Shown: piece by piece, positions 38,121 through 51,475 of the stretch | How the letters are laid out: each line of letters opens with the position of its first letter | How positions within the stretch are numbered: the first letter of the stretch is position 1 | Assembly (NCBI GenBank): GCA_016930415.1 | Contig: JAFGGS010000012.1 | Span: 1 to 52,792 of the forward strand | Direction: 5' to 3' | Length of the DNA: 52,792 nt | Origin: Candidatus Woesearchaeota archaeon | GTDB taxonomy: Archaea; Nanobdellota; Nanobdellia; Woesearchaeales; SM23-78 | Made by a program: the position numbers and the translations under genes | The notes under the pieces: generated by a model | What the model was told of the DNA's origin: nothing | What the model saw: only the letters and a program-made list of their open reading frames with translations | The model's database searches: none

Positions 38121-38207
38121 AGCCCCTGGCCGGATTTGAACCGGCGACCTGCTGATTGCTTGAAATGGTTTACAAGTCAGCTGCACTAGCCACTATGCTA
38201 CAGGGGC
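38121..38207 (-). tRNA. tRNA-Thr(UGU) with a 14-nt intron
   Basis: The acceptor stem GCCCCTG/CAGGGGC, D-arm GCAT-AGTGGCTA-GTGC, anticodon stem GCTGA/TCAGC and T-arm GCCGG-TTCAAAT-CCGGC all pair, with U73 encoded at 38121. The anticodon loop is CTTGTA plus A (anticodon UGU) and is interrupted after position 37 by AACCATTTCAAGCA. CTTG pairs with CAAG, with a 3-nt CAA bulge next to the anticodon stem; cutting after the second nucleotide on both sides gives the normal 7-nt loop. This is a relaxed bulge-helix-loop substrate for the splicing endonuclease. G1-C72, C2-G71 and U73 fit archaeal Thr identity. No CCA is encoded. Confidence 0.93.
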
Positions 38208-41673: not shown

Positions 41674-42684
41674 TTAGAGGATCGGGACTTTCTCAAGGAT
41701 CTCCTTGATGATGTCGTCTGTCTTGACGCTCTCAGCCTCTCCCTCGAAGTTCAGCAGAATTCTATGCCTTAAGCAATTATAAGCGACTTCCTTGACGTCG
41801 TTCGCAATGACGTACCCTCTGCCTTTCAGGAGGGCGTGGGCTTTCGAAGCTATGTATAATGCTATGCTGGCCCTTGGGCTTCCGCCGTTGTCGATGTATT
41901 TCCCGGACTTCACGTCGTACTTGGCGGGCTTCCTCGTGGCCTCGACTATCTGGATTATGTAGTTCTCTATCTTCTTGTCAGTGTATATCTTCTTGACGAA
42001 GTCCTGGGCCCGCACTATCTCGTCAGGCGTGAGCACCCTCTGGAGGTCGTAGTTCTCGAAGTTGAAGATCGTCATGTTGGTCCGAAGCACCTGCACCTCG
42101 TCCTCTGGCTCGGGGTAGGTCATGACCAGCTTGTAGAGGAACCTGTCGACTTGGGCTTCTGGAAGCTTGTAGGTTCCCAGGTTCTCGATCGGGTTCTGGG
42201 TCGCCATGACGAAGAACGGGTTTGGCAGTCGGAAAGTCTCCTTTCCGATGGTCGCTTGCTTCTCCTGCATGCTCTCCAGCAGGGCTGATTGTACTTTAGG
42301 AGGAGACCTGTTGATCTCGTCTGCGAGGACGAAGTTGGCGAAGATCGGTCCTTTCACTGTGAAGAATCCTCTTCCTTCCTCGTACGTCGTCACTCCTACG
42401 ATGTCTGTCGGCAGCAGGTCTGGCGTGAACTGTATCCTTGAGAATGCGCATCCGGTGATCTTGGCCATGGTCTTGACCAGGAGCGTCTTCCCTATCCCAG
42501 GAATTCCTTCCACCAGCGTGTGGCCATTGGCGATGAGCGCCTCGATCAGGCCGTTTATCACGTCGTGCTGGCCTATGACTGTCTTGCCTATCTCCCGCCT
42601 TATCTCGTCGAACTTTCCCTGGTAGAAATTTATCTTAGCTTCAAAAGCAGGGTCTCTGACCGCGTTGTAATTATCAATATCCAT
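41674..42684 (-). CDS. moxR: MoxR-type AAA+ ATPase
   Basis: The 336-aa ATPase has Walker A GIPGIGKT (60-67), pore-region FTPDLLPTDIVG, Walker B FVLADEINRSPPK, sensor 1 ATQNPIE, arginine-finger region PEAQVDRFLYKL and a C-terminal lid with GGSPRASIALYIASKA. MoxR ATPases form hexamers that remodel client proteins with VWA partners. It leads the operon with DUF58 and VWA genes. A TATA-like ttttatatga (42725-42734) and aaggggt Shine-Dalgarno lie upstream; the next gene to the right is divergent. Confidence 0.94.
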   Translation of the reverse strand: MDIDNYNAVRDPAFEAKINFYQGKFDEIRREIGKTVIGQHDVINGLIEALIANGHTLVEGIPGIGKTLLVKTMAKITGCAFSRIQFTPDLLPTDIVGVTTYEEGRGFFTVKGPIFANFVLADEINRSPPKVQSALLESMQEKQATIGKETFRLPNPFFVMATQNPIENLGTYKLPEAQVDRFLYKLVMTYPEPEDEVQVLRTNMTIFNFENYDLQRVLTPDEIVRAQDFVKKIYTDKKIENYIIQIVEATRKPAKYDVKSGKYIDNGGSPRASIALYIASKAHALLKGRGYVIANDVKEVAYNCLRHRILLNFEGEAESVKTDDIIKEILEKVPIL

Positions 42685-42802: not shown

Positions 42803-42828
42803 GAAATGAGCCAGAATAAGCTGTGATC

Positions 42829-43488
42829 ATGGTTGAAAAAAGAGGTGACCTTGAGTCTAAGGTAGTCAATAAGCTTGTCCTGAAGAAGGCTGTGGAGCAT
42901 AGGATACGCCAGATGTCAGAGAAGGCTTTCATCAGCGAGCGCGAAGTCTACGACCTCATCAGGGGGTTCTTCAAGAAGTTCATAGGCATTGACTATGAGT
43001 TCACCGCTGACGAGCTGGCAAGCGAGCTTAAGAAGGTCTACATGCCTGAGGAGATGCATGAGCGCATCCGCTCCCTTCTTGACAGGATATCTGAGATGGA
43101 GCACCTAAGCCGGGCTTTCTCGAAAGACGAGCTGGTGATGATCCTTCGTGACTTCAAGAAGCTGACTGACGACATGGTCGTAGTCCATTATGAGAAGAAG
43201 TCATTCTTCAAGAGGCTTGCCGACATGTTCCACGGCTCCGTCGCCCAGGAGCACAAGAAGGTATTGGAGGCTGACACCTCTCTTGGAGAGGAGGAGCGGA
43301 CTATCGTCAAGATGAACATCCTCCTAGACAACAGCAGGCGTTGGAGCGGCAAGGACATCGAGGCTTCCAAGAAGGCTTACCAGGACTTGCTGGTGCTCTA
43401 CGACGCGCTTGACGAGGAGCGCAAGAAGGCTTACTACGCGCCTGTGAACGAGCTCTACAACATGCTCAAGAACAAGGGCCTGCAGTGA
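42829..43488 (+). CDS. helical protein sharing a C-terminal module with the TSP1-type membrane protein
   Basis: This 219-aa, soluble, almost wholly helical protein has no recognised family. N-terminal helices (VVNKLVLKKAVEHRIRQMSE, EREVYDLIRGFFKKFIG) lead to a membrane-proximal-like segment KKSFFKRLADMF. The C-terminus, SKKAYQDLLVLYDALDEERK then YAPVNELYNMLKNKG, matches the end of the 49251-51266 product (AKKKYLEIIEEYDKLSVAEE, IQRLYNNV) in spacing and key Tyr/Leu/Asn. It is divergent from moxR. Confidence 0.65.
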   Translation: MVEKRGDLESKVVNKLVLKKAVEHRIRQMSEKAFISEREVYDLIRGFFKKFIGIDYEFTADELASELKKVYMPEEMHERIRSLLDRISEMEHLSRAFSKDELVMILRDFKKLTDDMVVVHYEKKSFFKRLADMFHGSVAQEHKKVLEADTSLGEEERTIVKMNILLDNSRRWSGKDIEASKKAYQDLLVLYDALDEERKKAYYAPVNELYNMLKNKGLQ

Positions 43489-43490
43489 CG

Positions 43491-44444
43491 TCACCTCGCT
43501 AGCTCCAGGAACTCTTCAAGCCTGAACGCTTTTATCTTCTCATATATCTTCAGCTTCTTCTTGAGCATCCGCTCAAGGCTTCTCTTCATGTCAGGGTGGG
43601 CCTTCATCTGTCTTTGCAGCCAATAAATCGTCGTGATCACCCTTTTCCTGATGAAGTAGTACGTTGCCTTCTTCTCCTCATGGTTGAGCTTGACGTGCTT
43701 CTGATATTCCCTTAGCATGAGCTTGAGCCTGTCTTTTCTCACTCCTGCCCTCCTGACGCATGGGTCGAGCAGTATCACTGCGAGTTCCTGAGCCAAGTAG
43801 TCCTCGTGGCAATCATCCCAGTCTATTATCGCGAGCAGCTTGTCATCCTTGACCAGAAGGTTTACCCCGTGCAGGTCTCCGTGGATTACGCTTCGCCTGA
43901 GCTTCCCGCGGTCTATGGCCTTCAGCTCTTTCAGGAGCTCTTGCTCTTCTTTCAAGATATTGATTCCTTCAACGATACTTCTCCTGGGGCCCTTGGGCTT
44001 GAACTGGTGGTCCTTGATCCAGATGTACCTTCTGTTGAGCTTTAGGCGCATGAGTGCCTTGCTCAGCCTTCCTGACTTGGTGGCTATGTCCGCGATGAGG
44101 GCAGGAGTGTATTTCCTGGGCTCTGTCCCGTCTATGAACTTCTGCAGGCACATTCTCTTTCCTTCATGGATTATCAGCTCCTTCCCATCCAAGGACTTGA
44201 TCATCCTAGCCACCGGAAGCTTCTTCCTGCTCGCGTAATCAATGATCCTCAGCTGGTACTTGAAGAAGTCGACGTCTGATTCCTCCAATATCTTCAGGAC
44301 GTACCTGCCCCTGGTCGTCTTCAACAAGTAGACTGTGTTCTGGAGCGCCCATGGGATGTGCTTATGGGACCTGTAGCTGCCTGCATCGTATCCTGAAAGA
44401 ATGTCCCTGAAATCCTTCGCGCCCAGCAGGGTTATTATGGTCAT
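43491..44444 (-). CDS. APH/homoserine-kinase-II-like phosphotransferase
   Basis: The 317-aa kinase has an N-lobe with NTVYLLKTTRGRYVLKIL (ATP lysine), the catalytic loop VIHGDLHGVNLLV and the metal motif AIIDWDDC. It belongs to the aminoglycoside phosphotransferase/choline kinase/ThrB2 superfamily, which phosphorylates hydroxyls of small molecules; the substrate is undetermined. The frame extends to a TTG at 44483, but a TATA box at 44467-44476 lies within that extension, exactly 28 nt before ATG 44444, so the shorter leaderless product is chosen. It converges with the 42829 gene. Confidence 0.8.
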   Translation of the reverse strand: MTIITLLGAKDFRDILSGYDAGSYRSHKHIPWALQNTVYLLKTTRGRYVLKILEESDVDFFKYQLRIIDYASRKKLPVARMIKSLDGKELIIHEGKRMCLQKFIDGTEPRKYTPALIADIATKSGRLSKALMRLKLNRRYIWIKDHQFKPKGPRRSIVEGINILKEEQELLKELKAIDRGKLRRSVIHGDLHGVNLLVKDDKLLAIIDWDDCHEDYLAQELAVILLDPCVRRAGVRKDRLKLMLREYQKHVKLNHEEKKATYYFIRKRVITTIYWLQRQMKAHPDMKRSLERMLKKKLKIYEKIKAFRLEEFLELAR

Positions 44445-44466
44445 GGGAGGGATTGCGTCAATGCAT

Positions 44467-44476
44467 GTTATAAATT
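44467..44476 (-). promoter_or_regulatory. TATA box of the kinase gene
   Basis: aatttataac on the minus strand is 28 nt from ATG 44444, just beyond the stop of the 1249-aa surface protein. Confidence 0.6.
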
Positions 44477-44489
44477 TTTTCAAACGCCT

Positions 44490-47400
44490 TCAGCTGCCTG
44501 GCCAGTATGGTTTTATCCAGTCTTCATCTTCAGCCTTTGCTTTCTTCGCGTTTTCCTCTTCCTGCTTCTTGCGGGCCGCCTTCCTTCGCTTCCCTGTGAG
44601 GAGGATTATCGTCCCTATGGCTGCCGCTCCCAGGAATGCAAAGAGGTATCTTTGGTTCTCCTTCCTTATCACCTTGCTGACGATTGTCTCTGGCTTCTGG
44701 ACTGTCCTCTTGGACACGCTCACGAGGTACTTGCACCCTTCGATGACTCCGTCGACGATGTTTATGGCTTCCTCGTTGGACCCTCCGTTCGCAAGCTCTT
44801 CCTTTGCCTTGGTGAGCAGCTCGTTTAGCTCCAGGCACTCAGGGTTCTCGTTGAGGAGGTCCTGGGCGAATGTGACTTTCGTCTGTATGTCCTTGCCTGT
44901 CTGCGACTGCTCGATGGTGTTCAGGAAGACGTACGCAGAGTCCCCTGTCTCCGGCTCAGTCACGTTCGCCATGATCTGGATCTTGTAGTCATCTCCCAGC
45001 CTGTAATTAGTGACTGAGAGCGTGACGTTCCTCACTTCTCCCCTCTTTATCTCGTCAAAATAGTCTTCTGAGAACTGGAAGTCTATCTCAGGGGGCAGCG
45101 CGCTCACGTTCAGCCTTACGCCTGTCAGCGTGGAGTTCCAGGTGTTCTGGATGCCTATAGGGATGACTACTGTCTTGTTCTCGTACACAGTGACTATCTC
45201 AGGCACGACTATCTCTATGGCTTGCGGTTTTATGTCCTCCTTTGTTATGGGGATCGGGATCGGGCTGTTCCTCGAGCTCCCTCCTCCGCCGCTCTGCGGC
45301 TGGGGGGTCTCGACGACCGTGGTCTCGTTGCTTATCTGGAGCGCTTCTATGAATACTGCATTGCTCTCAAGAGTCAGGCTTTCAGGATCGGTTGCCGTGA
45401 ACGTGACTGTGCAGTTGCCGATGGATGTCGGCCTCACCCTGAGCGTGTGCGATTCTATTGTGAGCGTGGCTACGTTGCAGCTCGTGACGGTGTATGTCAA
45501 CAGGCTCGTCTCTCCCTCGTCGAATACGTTGTTGCTGTTGTTGTCGTCGTCAGGGTCGATATAGTGCGTCCCGAGGTAGGATCTCATGAGGTACTCGTTG
45601 TATACTGTCGTCCCATTGGCTGATATGTTCCTCAGGGCGTTTATCAGCGCCGGCGCCCGATTGACGTCGGTGGTCGTCCCGCTCCACGTGAACGATGCGT
45701 TCTCGAAGTAGTCGTCCTCGACGCGTACGCTCACAGTCTCGCTCCCTTCCGAGAAGAAGCCGTAGCTCCTAGTGTAGTTCGTCTGGTTAGTCGTGTTCAG
45801 GGCCAGCGTCCCGTCCACGTACCATAAGAATGTCAGGTTGGTGACTGGCGTCTCGTCAGTCAAGTTGAGCGTGAAGTTTATCGTCGTGTTCTCTGGGAAA
45901 GTTATCCCTGTGCTGTTGTTCGGGAAGAGGCTCCTGTTGGCGAAGGCGAACACGATGATGCTGTTCAGCGGCGTGCCGTAAGGATACACTTGCGTGATGT
46001 TCGGAGCGTTGCTCTTGGCTATCACTGTGAAGTTCTTGTTGATCGTGTGGGTCGCCCCGTAATAGTCCGTGGCTGTGATGTTGATGCTGTAATTTCCCGC
46101 AGTCCCTAACTCCGGAACGAATAGCACCTGGCCGTGGCTCTTGTTGGTTGCGGAGTTCCAGGCAGTCGTGATGTTGAAGAGCAGGGACCCTGAGATGTTT
46201 ATCACGCTGAAGTTCACGTACTCATAGCTTGGAATTAAGAGGTAGTCGTCGTCATTCGCGTCGATGCTGAATGACACTGTGTGGGTCTCCACTATCTTCG
46301 GGAACGTGAAGTCCACGACGCTTGGTGCGTCGTTCGTATTGTTTATGATGACTGTTATGGTCTCGTTGTCTATCGCGCCTTTCGTGTCAGTCACGGTCAC
46401 GAGCAAGGAGTAGTTGCCTACGAGGCTCTGATCCGGCGTGTAGTTGGCGTAGGCGCTGGCGACCGGCGTCTGGGTGGAGTTATCCGTGAGGTCGAAGACT
46501 GCCGTGTTGTTGCTGCTGAAGGTCAGGTCCTCGTTGTCAGCATCAGACGCGCTCACCCATTCTGTGCAGAGCACGTCCTCGAAGCAGGTGATTGTTCCGA
46601 TAGGGTTCAGGATCGGGGCTGAGTTGTTGATGACCGTCAGGTTCATCATCTCAGTGTCGAATAGTCCTCCGTCGTCAGTCACGGTGATGTTTATCGTGTG
46701 GTTCCCGACGTCTGATGCGGATGGCGTGAACTGTACTAGCCCTGTGATTGAGTTCGTGACGAATAGGCCGCTGTCGTCTGAGAAGCTCAGCACCTCTCCT
46801 TCGTATGTCAGCTCGTCAGGGTCTGTGGCGTTCACAAGGTATGTGAACTCTGCGCTCACGTAAGCGGTCAGGTTGCTGATGTTCTGCTGGCCTGCCGTGT
46901 TATTATAATAGGAGCTGAGGACGTGTACGATTGGGGGATCGTTTGTGTTAGAAATGTTCAAGAACACGTCTTGAGAGTCCTCAGCTCCTTTGTCGTCGAC
47001 GACTATGAATCTCACTGTCCTGCACACTACGTGCTCGTTCGTGAGGGTTGTGATGTTGACGAGTCCAGTCGCGTTCTGCGAGTTGTTCGTCGTGGTGATG
47101 TTCCAGATGCCTGAGTACTGGCATCCTATTATTATCGTGCTGAAGTTCAGGGTCGCGTTTGCGTCTGAGTCGTTAGCGGTCACGTTGAAGACCAGTGAGC
47201 TGCCTTGCGTGGCGTTGTACATCGGGATGAATTGGAGCGTCGGAGCCATGTTCACGGGCAGTATCTCCAGGATGAAGGTCCTGCTTCGCGTGGCGTTCAG
47301 AGTGTCTGAAACGTTCACGGTCACGGTGTAGTTACCTGCATCGAAGAAGCTTGCAGTGCTGTTGCCTGCGAACATCATGGTGGCTGACGTGTTGCTGGTC

Positions 47401-48239
47401 TGGTTTATGATCAGGTTCAGGGTCGGATCTATGCTTATGCTGAAGTTGAAGGGCTGGTTGTCCTCCTCGTCAGTCGCTGTTATAGGGTAGTTGAATATCT
47501 CTCCTTCATTCATGGTCTGGTTTGCTAATGTGAAGTCTGGCGCGTCGTTCATGTAGGTCACGTTGAACTGCACCTTCTTGGTGGATACCCCTGGACTTCC
47601 GCCGTAGTTGTCTGTGGCGTAGAGCGTGATGTTCTGGGTCGTGCTAGTGTATGTGGGGGTCCACGTGAAGACGCCAGTCCCTGAATCTAATGATGAGCCT
47701 GAAGGCAGGGATCCGAAGTATCCGTATATCACTGAGTCAGAGTCAGGGTCTGTAGATGAGAGCGTGAAGTTGTTAGCTATGTCCTCGTACACCTGCGTGA
47801 TGTTGGTCACGCTGCTGCCGGTATCATTGGTCATTGTGGGGGTCGTCGGCGGCGCGTTTTTTATAGTGACATTAGACGAGAGGTTGATGGTCTCTGTGCC
47901 GTTGCCCAGGAACACCTGGCAGGTCCAGACCTCTCCCCTTGCAGTGCTGCTCGAGCCCAGCAAAGATGACAGCCCGCTTATGCCTGTGTCGTTCAGGTAT
48001 TGCACGCTTCCGTTGTACCAGGTCACGTTCTGGGACGTCGTGCCAGTGGACGCGTTCCAGGAGCACGTGAGGTCGTCTGTCGTGTCAGGCCTCTCAGTGC
48101 TGTTGGGGCTTACGTAGGGGTTTGTCGTGAACGAGACTGGGGTTGCAACGTACGCCAATGCCAGCAGCAAGGCTAGCGCTAGGGCTGGCATGATCGTCCT
48201 CTTCCAAATACTTGCTTTCGCCTCAGCGCCTCTTCTCAT
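44490..48239 (-). CDS. giant cadherin/Ig-repeat surface glycoprotein, C-terminally anchored
   Basis: The protein is 1249 aa. A signal peptide or anchor (TIMPALALALLLALAYVATP) leads to about nine cadherin/He_PIG-like repeats with the recurrent NDAPxF...ATDxEDNxP...TVNVSDT pattern and very many N-x-S/T sequons. After a Gly-rich linker (SGGGGSSRN, about 1015) comes an NPCBM/CARDB-like sandwich (VVIPIGIQNTWNSTLTG), a helical stalk with two Cys, a TM (YLFAFLGAAAIGTIILLT) and a basic tail. The ATG at 48239 has a gaggag Shine-Dalgarno and overlaps the last RHH gene by 17 bp. An adhesion or cell-wall role is likely. Confidence 0.85.
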   Translation of the reverse strand: MRRGAEAKASIWKRTIMPALALALLLALAYVATPVSFTTNPYVSPNSTERPDTTDDLTCSWNASTGTTSQNVTWYNGSVQYLNDTGISGLSSLLGSSSTARGEVWTCQVFLGNGTETINLSSNVTIKNAPPTTPTMTNDTGSSVTNITQVYEDIANNFTLSSTDPDSDSVIYGYFGSLPSGSSLDSGTGVFTWTPTYTSTTQNITLYATDNYGGSPGVSTKKVQFNVTYMNDAPDFTLANQTMNEGEIFNYPITATDEEDNQPFNFSISIDPTLNLIINQTSNTSATMMFAGNSTASFFDAGNYTVTVNVSDTLNATRSRTFILEILPVNMAPTLQFIPMYNATQGSSLVFNVTANDSDANATLNFSTIIIGCQYSGIWNITTTNNSQNATGLVNITTLTNEHVVCRTVRFIVVDDKGAEDSQDVFLNISNTNDPPIVHVLSSYYNNTAGQQNISNLTAYVSAEFTYLVNATDPDELTYEGEVLSFSDDSGLFVTNSITGLVQFTPSASDVGNHTINITVTDDGGLFDTEMMNLTVINNSAPILNPIGTITCFEDVLCTEWVSASDADNEDLTFSSNNTAVFDLTDNSTQTPVASAYANYTPDQSLVGNYSLLVTVTDTKGAIDNETITVIINNTNDAPSVVDFTFPKIVETHTVSFSIDANDDDYLLIPSYEYVNFSVINISGSLLFNITTAWNSATNKSHGQVLFVPELGTAGNYSINITATDYYGATHTINKNFTVIAKSNAPNITQVYPYGTPLNSIIVFAFANRSLFPNNSTGITFPENTTINFTLNLTDETPVTNLTFLWYVDGTLALNTTNQTNYTRSYGFFSEGSETVSVRVEDDYFENASFTWSGTTTDVNRAPALINALRNISANGTTVYNEYLMRSYLGTHYIDPDDDNNSNNVFDEGETSLLTYTVTSCNVATLTIESHTLRVRPTSIGNCTVTFTATDPESLTLESNAVFIEALQISNETTVVETPQPQSGGGGSSRNSPIPIPITKEDIKPQAIEIVVPEIVTVYENKTVVIPIGIQNTWNSTLTGVRLNVSALPPEIDFQFSEDYFDEIKRGEVRNVTLSVTNYRLGDDYKIQIMANVTEPETGDSAYVFLNTIEQSQTGKDIQTKVTFAQDLLNENPECLELNELLTKAKEELANGGSNEEAINIVDGVIEGCKYLVSVSKRTVQKPETIVSKVIRKENQRYLFAFLGAAAIGTIILLTGKRRKAARKKQEEENAKKAKAEDEDWIKPYWPGS

Positions 48240-48357
48240 CCAAGTTCTCCTCGAGCGTCTTGATTATAATGTCCTTGAGCGATATCCCCTTTGACGCGGA
48301 CAATATCTTGATCTTCTTGTGCACTTCTTCCGGGACCTCTATGTTTATATTCGGCAT
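48223..48357 (-). CDS. ribbon-helix-helix protein 4 of a tandem array
   Basis: The 44-aa protein MPNINIEVPEEVHKKIKIL... is a minimal RHH/CopG-like fold: a beta strand for the DNA groove (NINIEV) and two helices (EEVHKKIKILSASKG, SLKDIIIKTLEENL). Its coding DNA is nearly identical to copy 3 over 77 bp (48272-48348 versus 48424-48500, two mismatches), a recent duplication. Its C-terminus differs (LDEKRR) because the frame runs into the overlapping start of the 1249-aa surface-protein gene. Confidence 0.8.
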   Translation of the reverse strand: MPNINIEVPEEVHKKIKILSASKGISLKDIIIKTLEENLDEKRR

Positions 48358-48368
48358 CTTTATGTTCC

Positions 48369-48509
48369 TCAGACCTTCATCTTGAGCTCTTTCGACTTCT
48401 CCTCGAGAGCCTTGACGATGAGATCCTTGAGCGATATCCCCTCTGACGCGGACAATATCTTGATCTTCTTGTGCACTTCTTCCGGGACTTCTATGTTTAT
48501 GTTAGGCAC
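48369..48509 (-). CDS. ribbon-helix-helix protein 3 of a tandem array
   Basis: This 46-aa GTG-initiated RHH protein has the strand PNINIEV, helix 1 EEVHKKIKILSAS and helix 2 LKDLIVKALEEKSKEL, ending KMKV. The Shine-Dalgarno is taggag, 9 nt before the start. It follows copy 2 by 16 bp. RHH dimers insert the two-strand ribbon in the DNA major groove; with four paralogues, heterodimers are possible. Confidence 0.8.
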   Translation of the reverse strand: MPNINIEVPEEVHKKIKILSASEGISLKDLIVKALEEKSKELKMKV

Positions 48510-48525
48510 GTTTTTCTTCTCCTAG

Positions 48526-48666
48526 CTAAACCTTCATCTTGAGTTCTTTCGACTTCTCCTCGAGTGCTTTCACGATCAGCTCCTTGAGCGGTATCCCTTC
48601 TGAAGCCGCGATTATCTTGATCTTCTTGTGGATCTCCTCTGGTATCTCGATGTTTATGTTGGGCAT
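48526..48666 (-). CDS. ribbon-helix-helix protein 2 of a tandem array
   Basis: The 46-aa protein reads MPNINIEIPEEIHKKIKII, then AASEGIPLKELIVKALEEKS and a KELKMKV end. It starts at ATG with gagg 5 nt upstream, 8 bp after copy 1. It is intermediate in sequence between copy 1 and copies 3/4, as in an array grown by successive duplication. Confidence 0.8.
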   Translation of the reverse strand: MPNINIEIPEEIHKKIKIIAASEGIPLKELIVKALEEKSKELKMKV

Positions 48667-48674
48667 CTTGTCCT

Positions 48675-48815
48675 CTATAGCTTCGCCTTGAGCTCCTTTG
48701 ACTTCTTCTCAAGAACCTTGACGATGTAATCCTTCAAAGTGGTGTCCTCCATGATGGAGGCCAGTTTCACCTTCTTGTGAAGCTCTTCAGATATCTCGAT
48801 GTTAATGTTTACCAC
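48675..48815 (-). CDS. ribbon-helix-helix protein 1 of a tandem array
   Basis: The 46-aa protein starts at GTG: MVNINIEISEELHKKVKLA, then SIMEDTTLKDYIVKVLEKKS and KELKAKL. It is the most divergent of the four and lies nearest the promoter/operator. The RHH family provides antitoxins and small repressors. No toxin gene (MazF, RelE, ParE type) is present among these genes, so regulation of the array and the surface protein is more likely than toxin neutralisation. Confidence 0.8.
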   Translation of the reverse strand: MVNINIEISEELHKKVKLASIMEDTTLKDYIVKVLEKKSKELKAKL

Positions 48816-48825
48816 AATCAACCAC

Positions 48826-48886
48826 TAACTTAGCTAACTTAGTTTAGTTACTTAACTTGGTTAACTAAACTAACTTATTTATAAGC
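48826..48886 (-). promoter_or_regulatory. promoter with operator repeats for the RHH array and surface protein
   Basis: A palindromic TATA cttatttataag (48875-48886) predicts transcription start near 48853. A perfect 12-bp inverted repeat, ttagtttagtta (48839-48850) and taactaaactaa (48862-48873), brackets this point, and a direct repeat taacttag (two copies, from about 48827) lies beside it. Short repeated half-sites like these suit cooperative RHH binding and autoregulation. Confidence 0.65.
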
Positions 48887-48948
48887 TTTTTGGAAAGAAG
48901 GCTTTGGCTATAAACCCGGAAACTGGCTATGAAGTCGGATCTTACAAT

Positions 48949-48958
48949 AGTTATAAAG
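48949..48958 (+). promoter_or_regulatory. TATA box of the 62-aa membrane protein
   Basis: agttataaag is centred 26 nt before ATG 48980, making this the likely leaderless start rather than ATG 48929. Confidence 0.5.
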
Positions 48959-48979
48959 GTGGCTTGCTTATTGGATTGG

Positions 48980-49168
48980 ATGCAAAACAAGATTATTCAG
49001 ATTGCAGTTGGGGAAGTGGTTACGGCGATTCTGGCGGTCATGGCGCTCATAGTGGTATCTGTGCTCCCGGATGGTTCTGTGAGGGCAAATATCGTACGGA
49101 CCATAGGAATTCTCTGGCTTGCTGGCGGAATAGGGGCTCCGCTTCTCATCTTGAAGCTCATCAAGTGA
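48980..49168 (+). CDS. small two-TM membrane protein
   Basis: The protein has 62 residues and two TM helices (IIQIAVGEVVTAILAVMALI and TIGILWLAGGIGAPLLILKL), separated by a short polar turn with Asp and Arg (LPDGSVRANIV). No family is recognised. An in-frame ATG at 48929 would add 17 residues, but the TATA spacing favours 48980. It is divergent from the RHH array and convergent with the TSP1-type gene. Confidence 0.55.
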   Translation: MQNKIIQIAVGEVVTAILAVMALIVVSVLPDGSVRANIVRTIGILWLAGGIGAPLLILKLIK

Positions 49169-49250: not shown

Positions 49251-51266
49251 CTAGCTCTTCTTCTCTCTCCACGCCCAGCCGTTGACGTAGGTCACGTTGT
49301 TGTAGAGTCTTTGGATGTCGCTGAACACCGCTTCTTCCTCGGCTACGCTTAGCTTGTCGTATTCTTCTATTATCTCGAGGTATTTCTTCTTGGCGGCTTC
49401 TGCCTCTATGAATTCCAGGGCGATGTAAGCGTTTATCATCATGGTCGTCATTTTCTCTTTCTGGCTCCCGCTTTCCTTTATCTTGAGCTCTTGGACTTCC
49501 CGCGGATACTCTCCTGGCGTGTATTCTGATGTCTGGAGCACTATGTTCCTGAGCTCTTCTAGGAGCAGCATCGTCTTGGTCTTTGTTATGAGGCTCTCAT
49601 CCTTCGATACCTTGTCGTACTCATCATTCATTGACGCGAATACCTTCCTGAGCAAAGGTATTATCTTCGCCTTCCCTTTCACGAGGCTATTATCGAAATC
49701 CTCTCGTTCATAGTCCTGCTTCAGCTTGAGCACCTTGGAGAAGTAATATCTCAAGAGGTCGCTGTACTTGGTGAGCCTCTCGAAGAGCTGCTCTCTTGAC
49801 TCTGTCTTCTCAAGCTTGGCCTGAAGCGGTATTATCTCAGCTAGGAGTTTCTTCTGGTCCTCCTTTGAGAGCAGGTATTGCTTCCTCTTGTTCCTGCTTA
49901 TGAACCATCCGAACTTGGCGAGGGCCTGGTTTATCTCCTTCTTGAAGTAATGATACAGCAATATCGCTGCTAAGAGCAGCATGAGACTGCCTGTGACCAG
50001 GTACATTCCTATCCCTCTCTCTTCCTGGAAGGGATACGGGACCTGGACGCTCTTGCAGACTGGGCAAGGCCCGCCGCAGTCGATCCCTTCCTCGCACGAG
50101 CCGTCGTGACAGTTCATTATCTCGTCATCACAGGTTCCAAGGTACTCGCACTCCTGTACTTCCAGGGGTTGGGTCCTGTTGGTGCCGCAGTTGTTCAAGT
50201 CCTTGCATACCCTCTTCTGCTGGCCTTCAGGCGTGCACACATCCCATTCAGAGCAGATCCAGTTCTCCTCGCACTCGGTTATCTCCTCGTACTTGCAGGG
50301 GAGTGTTATGAATTTCTCAAGCGAGCATCCCTTCGTGTCGACGCACCTCATGAGCTTCTGGTTCGTGACGTTGCACCTGTGATACTCGAAACACTCGTAT
50401 TCCGGATCAGGGCATATCACTGACGAGCCTCCTCCTCCTCCGCCGCTTCCAGTGGTGCTAGGCCCTTCAGTGCTAGGCGTGGTAGTCCTGCGCACGCAGG
50501 TGATGGAGACTAGGTTGCTATACGCGGTCTCGTTGTCAGGATCCATTGCTGTGAAGATGACTTGTTCTGTCAGGCCGCAGGCGGTTGCGCTTATCGCTAC
50601 CTCGCTGGTCCCGTATATCGTGACTGTGATATTGCTGTTCCCGCTCACGACGTAGGTCAAGGGGTCCAAGTCAGGGTCGCCGAAGTATTCGTTCAGGTAG
50701 AATACGTGGATGGTCTCTCCCTCGTAGAAGGTCTGGTCTGATATGTTCTTTATGAGGTATGGCGGGTCGTTGGTGTTGTTGATCGTGAGGTAGAACTGCT
50801 TGGTGCCTATCCTGTTGTCGCATCCTGTCTCGTCATCAGCAGCTAGCTGCAGCAGGTACACCCCCACGTTCCCGTTGCTCGTGTTGAAAGTGGTGAAGCC
50901 GGTAGGATGAACGTCTATGGGGGACTCGTTCGAGGTGAAGAAGCTCCTGTTCGCAGAGATCAATGTTGATGAGAAGCTGACGTTGTTCCCGTCAGCGTCT
51001 GTCGCGTTTATTGTGCAGTTGTAGTCGTCGTCCTGGTTTATGGTGAAGAAGAAGCCTGTCGAGTTTGACAGGTACAGGCAGGTACCATTGTAGATTACTG
51101 GCGGCGTGTTGATGCAGAAATCCACCTGGCCGTAGGCCTTGCCGGTCACGCTCCTGGCCTCTTCGGCTAGGCCTGCCTTGTTCAGGCTCCAGATGGTGAG
51201 GGTGGCGGAGTATATCATGATTAGGACTAGAACTACTACTAGGATGTTTCTTCCAAATTCCCTCAT
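49251..51266 (-). CDS. TSP1/cadherin-like membrane glycoprotein with cytoplasmic helical domain
   Basis: The protein is 671 aa from ATG 51266. An N-terminal TM (NILVVVLVLIMIYSATLTIW) is followed by two Ig/cadherin-like domains, a Gly6 linker, a Cys-rich region with a thrombospondin type 1-like repeat (CEENWICSEWDVC, RVCKDLNNCG) and the motif GIDCGGPCPVC, then a second TM (MYLVTGSLMLLLAAILLYHYF). The last 230 residues are cytoplasmic helices ending in the same Tyr-rich module as the 42829 product. The frame extends to 51353, but the TATA at 51292-51301 fits ATG 51266. Probably an adhesive or envelope-linking protein. Confidence 0.82.
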   Translation of the reverse strand: MREFGRNILVVVLVLIMIYSATLTIWSLNKAGLAEEARSVTGKAYGQVDFCINTPPVIYNGTCLYLSNSTGFFFTINQDDDYNCTINATDADGNNVSFSSTLISANRSFFTSNESPIDVHPTGFTTFNTSNGNVGVYLLQLAADDETGCDNRIGTKQFYLTINNTNDPPYLIKNISDQTFYEGETIHVFYLNEYFGDPDLDPLTYVVSGNSNITVTIYGTSEVAISATACGLTEQVIFTAMDPDNETAYSNLVSITCVRRTTTPSTEGPSTTGSGGGGGGSSVICPDPEYECFEYHRCNVTNQKLMRCVDTKGCSLEKFITLPCKYEEITECEENWICSEWDVCTPEGQQKRVCKDLNNCGTNRTQPLEVQECEYLGTCDDEIMNCHDGSCEEGIDCGGPCPVCKSVQVPYPFQEERGIGMYLVTGSLMLLLAAILLYHYFKKEINQALAKFGWFISRNKRKQYLLSKEDQKKLLAEIIPLQAKLEKTESREQLFERLTKYSDLLRYYFSKVLKLKQDYEREDFDNSLVKGKAKIIPLLRKVFASMNDEYDKVSKDESLITKTKTMLLLEELRNIVLQTSEYTPGEYPREVQELKIKESGSQKEKMTTMMINAYIALEFIEAEAAKKKYLEIIEEYDKLSVAEEEAVFSDIQRLYNNVTYVNGWAWREKKS

Positions 51267-51291
51267 TATAGAGTGCTTCCTGGTCATCTCT

Positions 51292-51301
51292 TTATTTAAA
51301 A
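51292..51301 (-). promoter_or_regulatory. TATA box of the TSP1-type gene
   Basis: ttttaaataa on the minus strand is centred about 30 nt before ATG 51266 and sits within the longer open frame, arguing against the ATGs at 51314 and 51287. Confidence 0.5.
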
Positions 51302-51349
51302 CTTTCTCAAGCATGGGGCTCCTGTTCAAGAAGTCAGAGATTATTATTG

Positions 51350-51475
51350 GCAAGCGAAGCTTGCGACGGGGTTTAATATAGGGAAATGCCTTTGCATTTC
51401 TCGTACCAGCAACTTTGTTGCAGGATACCCCGAACTTTAGTGCGAGCTTGCTACAGCAAAACCTTCTGGTTTTGC
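51350..51475. other. cluster of five hairpins, possible structured RNA or repeat element
   Basis: Perfect stems are gcaagc-gaa-gcttgc (51350-51364), gaaatgc-cttt-gcatttc (51383-51400), gcaac-ttt-gttgc (51409-51421) and gcaaaacc-ttct-ggttttgc (51456-51475). The pair cggggt/accccg (51367-51372, 51427-51432) encloses the middle two as a branched fold. The 126-nt cluster lies between two minus-strand genes, upstream of the TATA box of the TSP1-type gene. No coding sequence. Confidence 0.5.

Follow-up and report, generated by a model that had tools for sequence, protein, structure and literature searches.

Why should four genes for minimal ribbon-helix-helix (RHH) proteins stand in tandem directly ahead of the gene for a giant surface protein, and what might they do there? 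The array belongs to a Woesearchaeota-type (DPANN) MAG with a small genome (1.3 Mb), and lies in the 52,792-nucleotide stretch of DNA analysed here, which we call the window. Most DPANN archaea have never been cultured, few regulators have been recognised in them, and their contact with hosts is thought to rely on surface proteins. On the minus strand, from 48815 to 48223, four RHH ORFs occupy 593 bp in total ahead of the 1249-aa surface gene, as a preliminary description of the sequence had proposed. A repeat search of the window recovers the array as a single four-copy direct repeat with a unit of about 150 bp. The genes of the locus are as follows.

41674-42684, minus strand: MoxR AAA ATPase gene, a conserved synteny marker
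42823-43488, plus strand: convergent gene downstream of the surface gene, 221 aa, conserved and used as a synteny marker
44490-48239, minus strand: surface protein gene, 1249 aa, with an N-terminal signal/TM segment and Ig/cadherin-like repeats (Big_9, He_PIG)
48223-48239, minus strand: 17-bp overlap of RHH copy 4 and the surface gene
48223-48357, minus strand: RHH copy 4, 44 aa, positional orthologue of the genus RHH-B, overlapping the start of the surface gene
48369-48509, minus strand: RHH copy 3, 46 aa, GTG start, a mosaic whose 5' part resembles copy 4 and whose 3' part resembles copy 2
48526-48666, minus strand: RHH copy 2, 46 aa, with an RHH-B body and an RHH-A-like C-terminal tail
48675-48815, minus strand: RHH copy 1, 46 aa from a GTG codon (48 aa if the TTG at 48821 is the start), orthologue of RHH-A in the genus comparison
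49251-51353, minus strand: gene for a second, upstream surface protein, 700 aa ('up700')

The overlap, which had been described correctly, probably reflects translational coupling of copy 4 and the surface gene. The C-terminal part of the surface protein consists of a conserved beta-sandwich plus helices, followed by a TM segment and a basic tail; a fold search with this C-terminal domain returned generic Ig-like sandwiches and nothing more specific.

The four small proteins were compared with curated families and solved structures. Pfam yields weak matches to the RHH clan (HicB, ParD, Omega_Repress and CopG_antitoxin), none of them strong to any one curated family, and no match of an RHH copy exceeds the curated cut-offs except for a marginal HicB domain hit. 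The Omega repressor family PF07764 scores 20.3-20.8 bits, below its gathering cut-off of 33.3, and NCBIfam provides no informative name for either the RHH or the surface proteins. Among solved proteins, omega repressors come closest in sequence (E 0.026). An AlphaFold model of copy 2 (pLDDT 87) has an extended N-terminus and helices at residues 10-23 and 27-45, and a Foldseek search with this model finds Arc, CopG, AmrZ and Sulfolobus ORF56 (prob 0.85-0.99, E about 0.1-0.4). The predicted structure, a beta-alpha-alpha unit some 45 aa long whose strand residues alternate, is that of the RHH (MetJ/Arc/CopG) superfamily. The four copies do not differ in their predicted recognition strand, N-I-N-I-E, whose residues N3 and N5 are conserved in 63/72 and 65/72 homologues, respectively. 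All four copies should consequently read the same DNA, and differing DNA specificities among them are unlikely.

Upstream of copy 1, the following elements were identified.

48876-48891, minus strand: archaeal BRE/TATA promoter element, AAAAAGC-TTATAAATA, assigned from the sequence and the genus alignment
48824-48877, minus strand: putative operator of six contiguous 9-bp half-sites with consensus TAAGTTA(G/A)(T/C), one of them inverted
48835-48877, unstranded: inverted repeat inside the operator, with 16-nt arms at 48835-48850 and 48862-48877 that are 94% complementary

Read on the minus strand from 48877 to 48824, the six 9-mers are TAAGTTAGT TTAGTTAAC CAAGTTAAG TAACTAAAC TAAGTTAGC TAAGTTAGT. 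The 12-bp perfect inverted repeat reported previously is real; it forms part of these longer arms, and the element as a whole is better described as the run of contiguous 9-mers. Because the BRE/TATA element directly adjoins this run, the putative operator would span the expected transcription start, about 25 nt past the TATA box. The exact operator pair AAGTTANNNAAGTTA occurs once in the 1.3-Mb genome, at the array promoter, which argues against a chance origin. A regulon was also sought in this genome: apart from the unique pair, the remaining one-mismatch matches occur at control level.

It was found that the half-site motif extends well beyond the window. Upstream of the first RHH gene, AAGTTA/TAACTT occurs 100 times in 6671 bp as compared with 17 (maximum 25) in dinucleotide shuffles, for half-sites that had been defined on these same loci; flanking DNA contains 0.07 per 150 bp. 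Spacings between half-sites of the same orientation are multiples of 9 bp in 33/52 cases (nominal p 3e-19, a value that is too optimistic since the loci are related). A further 20 loci, which include some close relatives as well as several loci from beyond the order, contain 41 sites where 2.1 are expected from background, and 10 of their 16 spacings are multiples of 9 (p 1e-6). At most loci, the half-sites follow the TATA box and cover the expected start, with a median of 14 nt from the end of the TATA box to the first site. The motif is missing from a few RHH loci (G010, G058, G059, G218 and G359). Across 27 genomes, exact operator pairs lie directly before RHH genes in 8 of 23 cases; nine of the other exact-pair loci were inspected, and an RHH gene was nearby in none. 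Taken as a candidate operator, the AAGTTA/TAACTT motif with its 9-bp period is conserved throughout the order and also outside it.

To place the array in its genus, we compared seven genomes, that of the window included. Six of these encode the surface orthologue (48-54% identity for the relatives, among them Woesearchaeota Zod_Metabat.825 and SM23-78), and in all six RHH genes lie immediately upstream of it; the seventh genome (G003) has neither a surface orthologue nor an RHH gene at the thresholds used. An alignment of the six promoters reveals that the TATA box is kept and that AAGTTA/TAACTT-type sites after it align in every one. The copy number does differ: each of the five relatives has an RHH pair, A and B, and only the window genome has four genes. 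Judged from this comparison, four copies are a lineage-specific expansion of an ancestral pair and not the defining feature of the module.

The copies themselves suggest how the expansion came about. Copies 2-4 have the RHH-B body in common, but the C-terminal tail of copies 2 and 3 resembles that of RHH-A (KSKELKMKV, as against KSKELKAKL in copy 1), whereas copy 4 has its own tail, the part that overlaps the surface gene. The near-identity of copies 3 and 4 over 77 bp, pointed out earlier, amounts to 75/77 positions between gene nt 10 and 86. Identity of copy 3 with copy 4 is 94% for nt 1-84 but drops to 48% in the last part, where copy 3 is 88% identical to copy 2. Copy 3 is therefore a mosaic of copies 4 and 2, pointing to array growth by intragenic unequal recombination; such a mosaic would be left by unequal crossing-over inside the genes or, alternatively, by gene conversion. 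Short-read misassembly is an unlikely source of three different mosaic copies. Near-identical RHH pairs are found elsewhere (98% over 108 nt in G253; 94% in G328), where they have arisen independently of the window genome, so that, on sequence identity, duplication or conversion recurs. The possibility that A and B form separate orthologous lineages throughout the order is not supported: the likeness of A to B within a genome (0.53) is on average above that of A to A between genomes (0.48), again suggesting recurrent duplication or gene conversion.

Across the order, RHH matches at E 1e-8 are present in 66/353 genomes from 41 genera, many as adjacent pairs, although members of family f22 have a single RHH gene. 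One or two RHH genes stand ahead of surface orthologues in roughly 40 genomes of the order. In 32 of 40 order loci, the downstream gene is the surface orthologue by BLAST, and the commonest gene order is up700, RHH, surface gene, convergent gene, MoxR. At 27/38 loci the last RHH gene runs past the downstream start, by 4 bp at 18 of them. Exceptions have the RHH gene before a T2SSE ATPase gene (G215, with a similar neighbour in G196), a giant subtilase protein (G052), a glycine-rich/Big protein (G058) or an Fn3 protein (G218). With a wider profile, RHH matches were obtained in 59/371 genomes of the phylum; at 18 of 20 further loci, a protein with a hydrophobic N-terminus is encoded directly downstream or one gene on. 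At loci outside the order, single RHH genes stand ahead of genes for secreted or pilin-like proteins, the overlap being 4 bp in most cases and the operator mostly the same; G195 has three tandem RHH genes ahead of a 592-aa secreted protein.

Not every relative with the surface gene has the cassette. A profile of the surface C-terminal domain matches in 107/353 order genomes, and we picked 20 surface-gene loci that gave no RHH match at 1e-8 (one of them, G261, cut by a contig end). Neither a credible RHH gene nor an AAGTTA-type operator was found at these 20 loci. Instead, in 14 of the 20 a gene of the up700 family stops anywhere from 17 bp inside the surface gene to 55 bp ahead of its start, placing the surface gene in the operon of the upstream gene. 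The RHH cassette with its promoter thus separates genes that are otherwise one operon, and it appears to give the surface gene an autoregulated promoter of its own. In a tree of 58 surface proteins, RHH presence needs 8 changes as compared with 17 when labels are shuffled; at least 5 of the 8 fall on well-supported branches, and the tree is compatible with either gain or loss. One genus is mixed: the cassette is present in G328 and absent from G329 and G330. The preliminary description had named, as evidence against itself, relatives that keep the surface gene and have no array; there are none within the genus, but more distant relatives are of this kind. With many members of the order keeping the surface gene without RHH, RHH control would seem dispensable. 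The proposal that the surface gene has an RHH regulator of its own, with an operator at the promoter, nevertheless gains from the linkage in six of six genus members and the co-occurrence of RHH gene and operator throughout the order.

We consider it likely that the RHH array heads a surface-protein operon and autoregulates it, its dimers acting on the 9-bp half-sites to repress the RHH genes and the surface gene. We infer that the genes are cotranscribed and that RHH dimers, homo- or heterodimers with the same strand, would line up along the half-sites between the TATA box and the first start codon, where they would occlude the start site and so repress all of these genes together. The last RHH gene, overlapping the surface start codon, would couple translation of the surface gene to that of the array. 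From an ancestral unit of two RHH genes, unequal recombination would have led to the four present here, raising repressor dose or feedback with operator specificity unchanged. The earlier suggestion that array growth could tune dimer combinations or dose is plausible as regards dose; growth itself is evident from the two copies in relatives and the independent duplicates. Copy number could tune dose, dimer stability or noise.

Activation is the main rival to repression. CdrS, a 55-aa archaeal RHH protein cotranscribed with its target, has been described as an activator of ftsZ2 (PMC7439475), and the RHH proteins here might similarly activate the surface operon, or switch with a ligand or partner protein. 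The location of the sites downstream of the TATA box, normally a position that blocks initiation, makes this unlikely. Copies 2 and 3 may be neutral products of recombination, with one pair being what matters, a reading that is compatible with an autorepressive module. All five genus relatives manage with two RHH genes and near-identical duplicates recur, yet dN/dS among copies 2-4 is 0.07-0.33 (rough estimates, with dS high and saturated for some pairs), indicating purifying selection, and frames and spacing are intact. Neutrality of the extra copies is possible, if somewhat doubtful.

We regard as very improbable that the genes are solitary or orphaned antitoxins (ParD/VapB/HicB-like) parked beside a surface gene. 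The weak Pfam matches to ParD, HicB and CopG_antitoxin would fit, but fall short of curated cut-offs other than for the marginal HicB hit; a toxin gene was recognised neither beside the array nor in the related loci examined, about 45 aa leaves no room for a toxin-binding extension, and the position before surface genes is conserved. No more credible is a centromere-like partition or nucleoid-organising site (ParB/omega/ParG-like) in place of a promoter operator. The tandem sites are omega-like, the nearest PDB sequence is omega, and an RHH gene follows a ParA/MinD-type gene in G058 and G059; the array, however, has no adjacent ParA gene, its single genomic operator is located at a TATA box, and its conserved downstream partner is a surface protein.

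The module looks like a widespread way of controlling the archaeal cell surface. A regulator-operator-surface unit conserved across an order offers a first testable handle on surface control in DPANN, predicts from sequence alone which surface genes are regulated, and supplies a natural series of 0, 1, 2 and 4 copies in which the effect of repressor copy number could be studied. More tentatively, and somewhat short of an even chance in our judgement, the scheme may hold phylum-wide in Nanoarchaeota-type DPANN, with miniature RHH autoregulators heading surface- or secreted-protein operons, all reading one AAGTTA operator of 9-bp period, and copy number (1, 2, 3 or 4) serving as a fast-evolving dial set by intragenic recombination.

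How does this compare with known systems? CopG/Arc-type proteins autorepress from an operator near their own promoter. The array proteins resemble them in their fold match and in being RHH proteins of about 45 aa that consist of the DNA-binding fold alone, but CopG/Arc-type repressors belong to phage or plasmid contexts, occur in single copy and use other operators. SSV1 F55 and other archaeal viral RHH factors (PMC4158269, PMC5569661) are likewise small, CopG-like and act on promoters; they belong to viruses and not to surface operons. CdrS of haloarchaea is a minimal RHH protein encoded directly upstream of its main target, ftsZ2, with conserved synteny (PMC7439475, PMC8406309); the two are cotranscribed, and CdrS is a reported activator in Halobacterium (PMC7439475). 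CdrS is, however, single, concerned with cell division genes and reported absent from DPANN (PMC7439475, PMC8406309), whereas the present system has tandem copies, a surface-protein partner and a dedicated putative operator; ftsZ2 is not among the neighbours of the array, which are surface proteins and the MoxR cluster.

The closest parallel is omega/RHH-ParB of pSM19035, a small RHH protein that binds tandem 7-bp repeats over its promoters, its own included, the repeats being consecutive, short, non-palindromic and of mixed orientation (PMC9499535). By this analogy, the regulator is probably a cooperative repressor working like omega, although the array is not a member of that family: the omega repeats are 7-bp WATCACW, unlike the 9-bp AAGTTA type here, and omega also partitions plasmids with ParA, whereas this array is without ParA and targets a surface-protein operon. 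A minimal RHH pair or array overlapping a giant surface gene and combined with an operator of 9-bp period was not found described in the literature searched (which excluded most subscription papers), in agreement with the initial impression of novelty. RHH autoregulators are of an already known kind; copy numbers from 0 to 4 before a surface gene across a DPANN order appear to be new.

In the genome that contains the window, the sole other clear RHH gene of the array's family was found at G000:C7:94323-94442 (1501-1620 of locus L009), where it is preceded by ACTTA-rich DNA and directly followed by a signal-bearing surface-type ORF, within which the contig ends. Upstream of the RHH genes of relatives G001 and G004, units of ~55 nt (TTGGTAAATAACAAAAACACAGTTTTTGAG...GAGGTGAAAATTTGGTAAAC) are repeated, at about 900-1360 of the L012 reverse complement and at 1180-1340 of L014. 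Each unit contains a Shine-Dalgarno-like sequence and a start codon, and the repeats look like duplicated leader/start regions. The G001 surface orthologue (L012, G001:C40) has one in-frame internal TAG.

Three further features were identified in the window:

48929-49168, (+) strand, 79-aa ORF with two hydrophobic stretches, its start divergent from and ~50 bp from the RHH promoter
43491-44483, (-) strand, APH-type phosphotransferase gene (PF01636), flanked by the surface gene on one side and the convergent 221-aa gene on the other
38121-38207, (-) strand, ARAGORN tRNA call whose anticodon, tgta, oddly has four bases

If the 79-aa ORF is a genuine gene, it could also be open to influence from the operator; the gaps between the upstream 700-aa surface protein gene and the RHH genes in relatives are 89-238 bp, leaving little or no space for it. 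No APH-type gene was seen between the surface gene and the 221-aa gene in the relatives read. The tRNA is perhaps intron-bearing or misread.

RHH genes are also arrayed elsewhere. A tandem RHH pair lies upstream of a protein gene in L096 (G215:C71) and L097 (G196:C121); in G215 the encoded protein carries a type II/IV secretion ATPase domain, the G196 protein is similar to it, and the AAGTTA operator is present at the G215 pair. In L175 (G195:C16), three diverged RHH genes, overlapping by 4 bp, stand in tandem ahead of a 592-aa secreted protein and make up an independent triple array.
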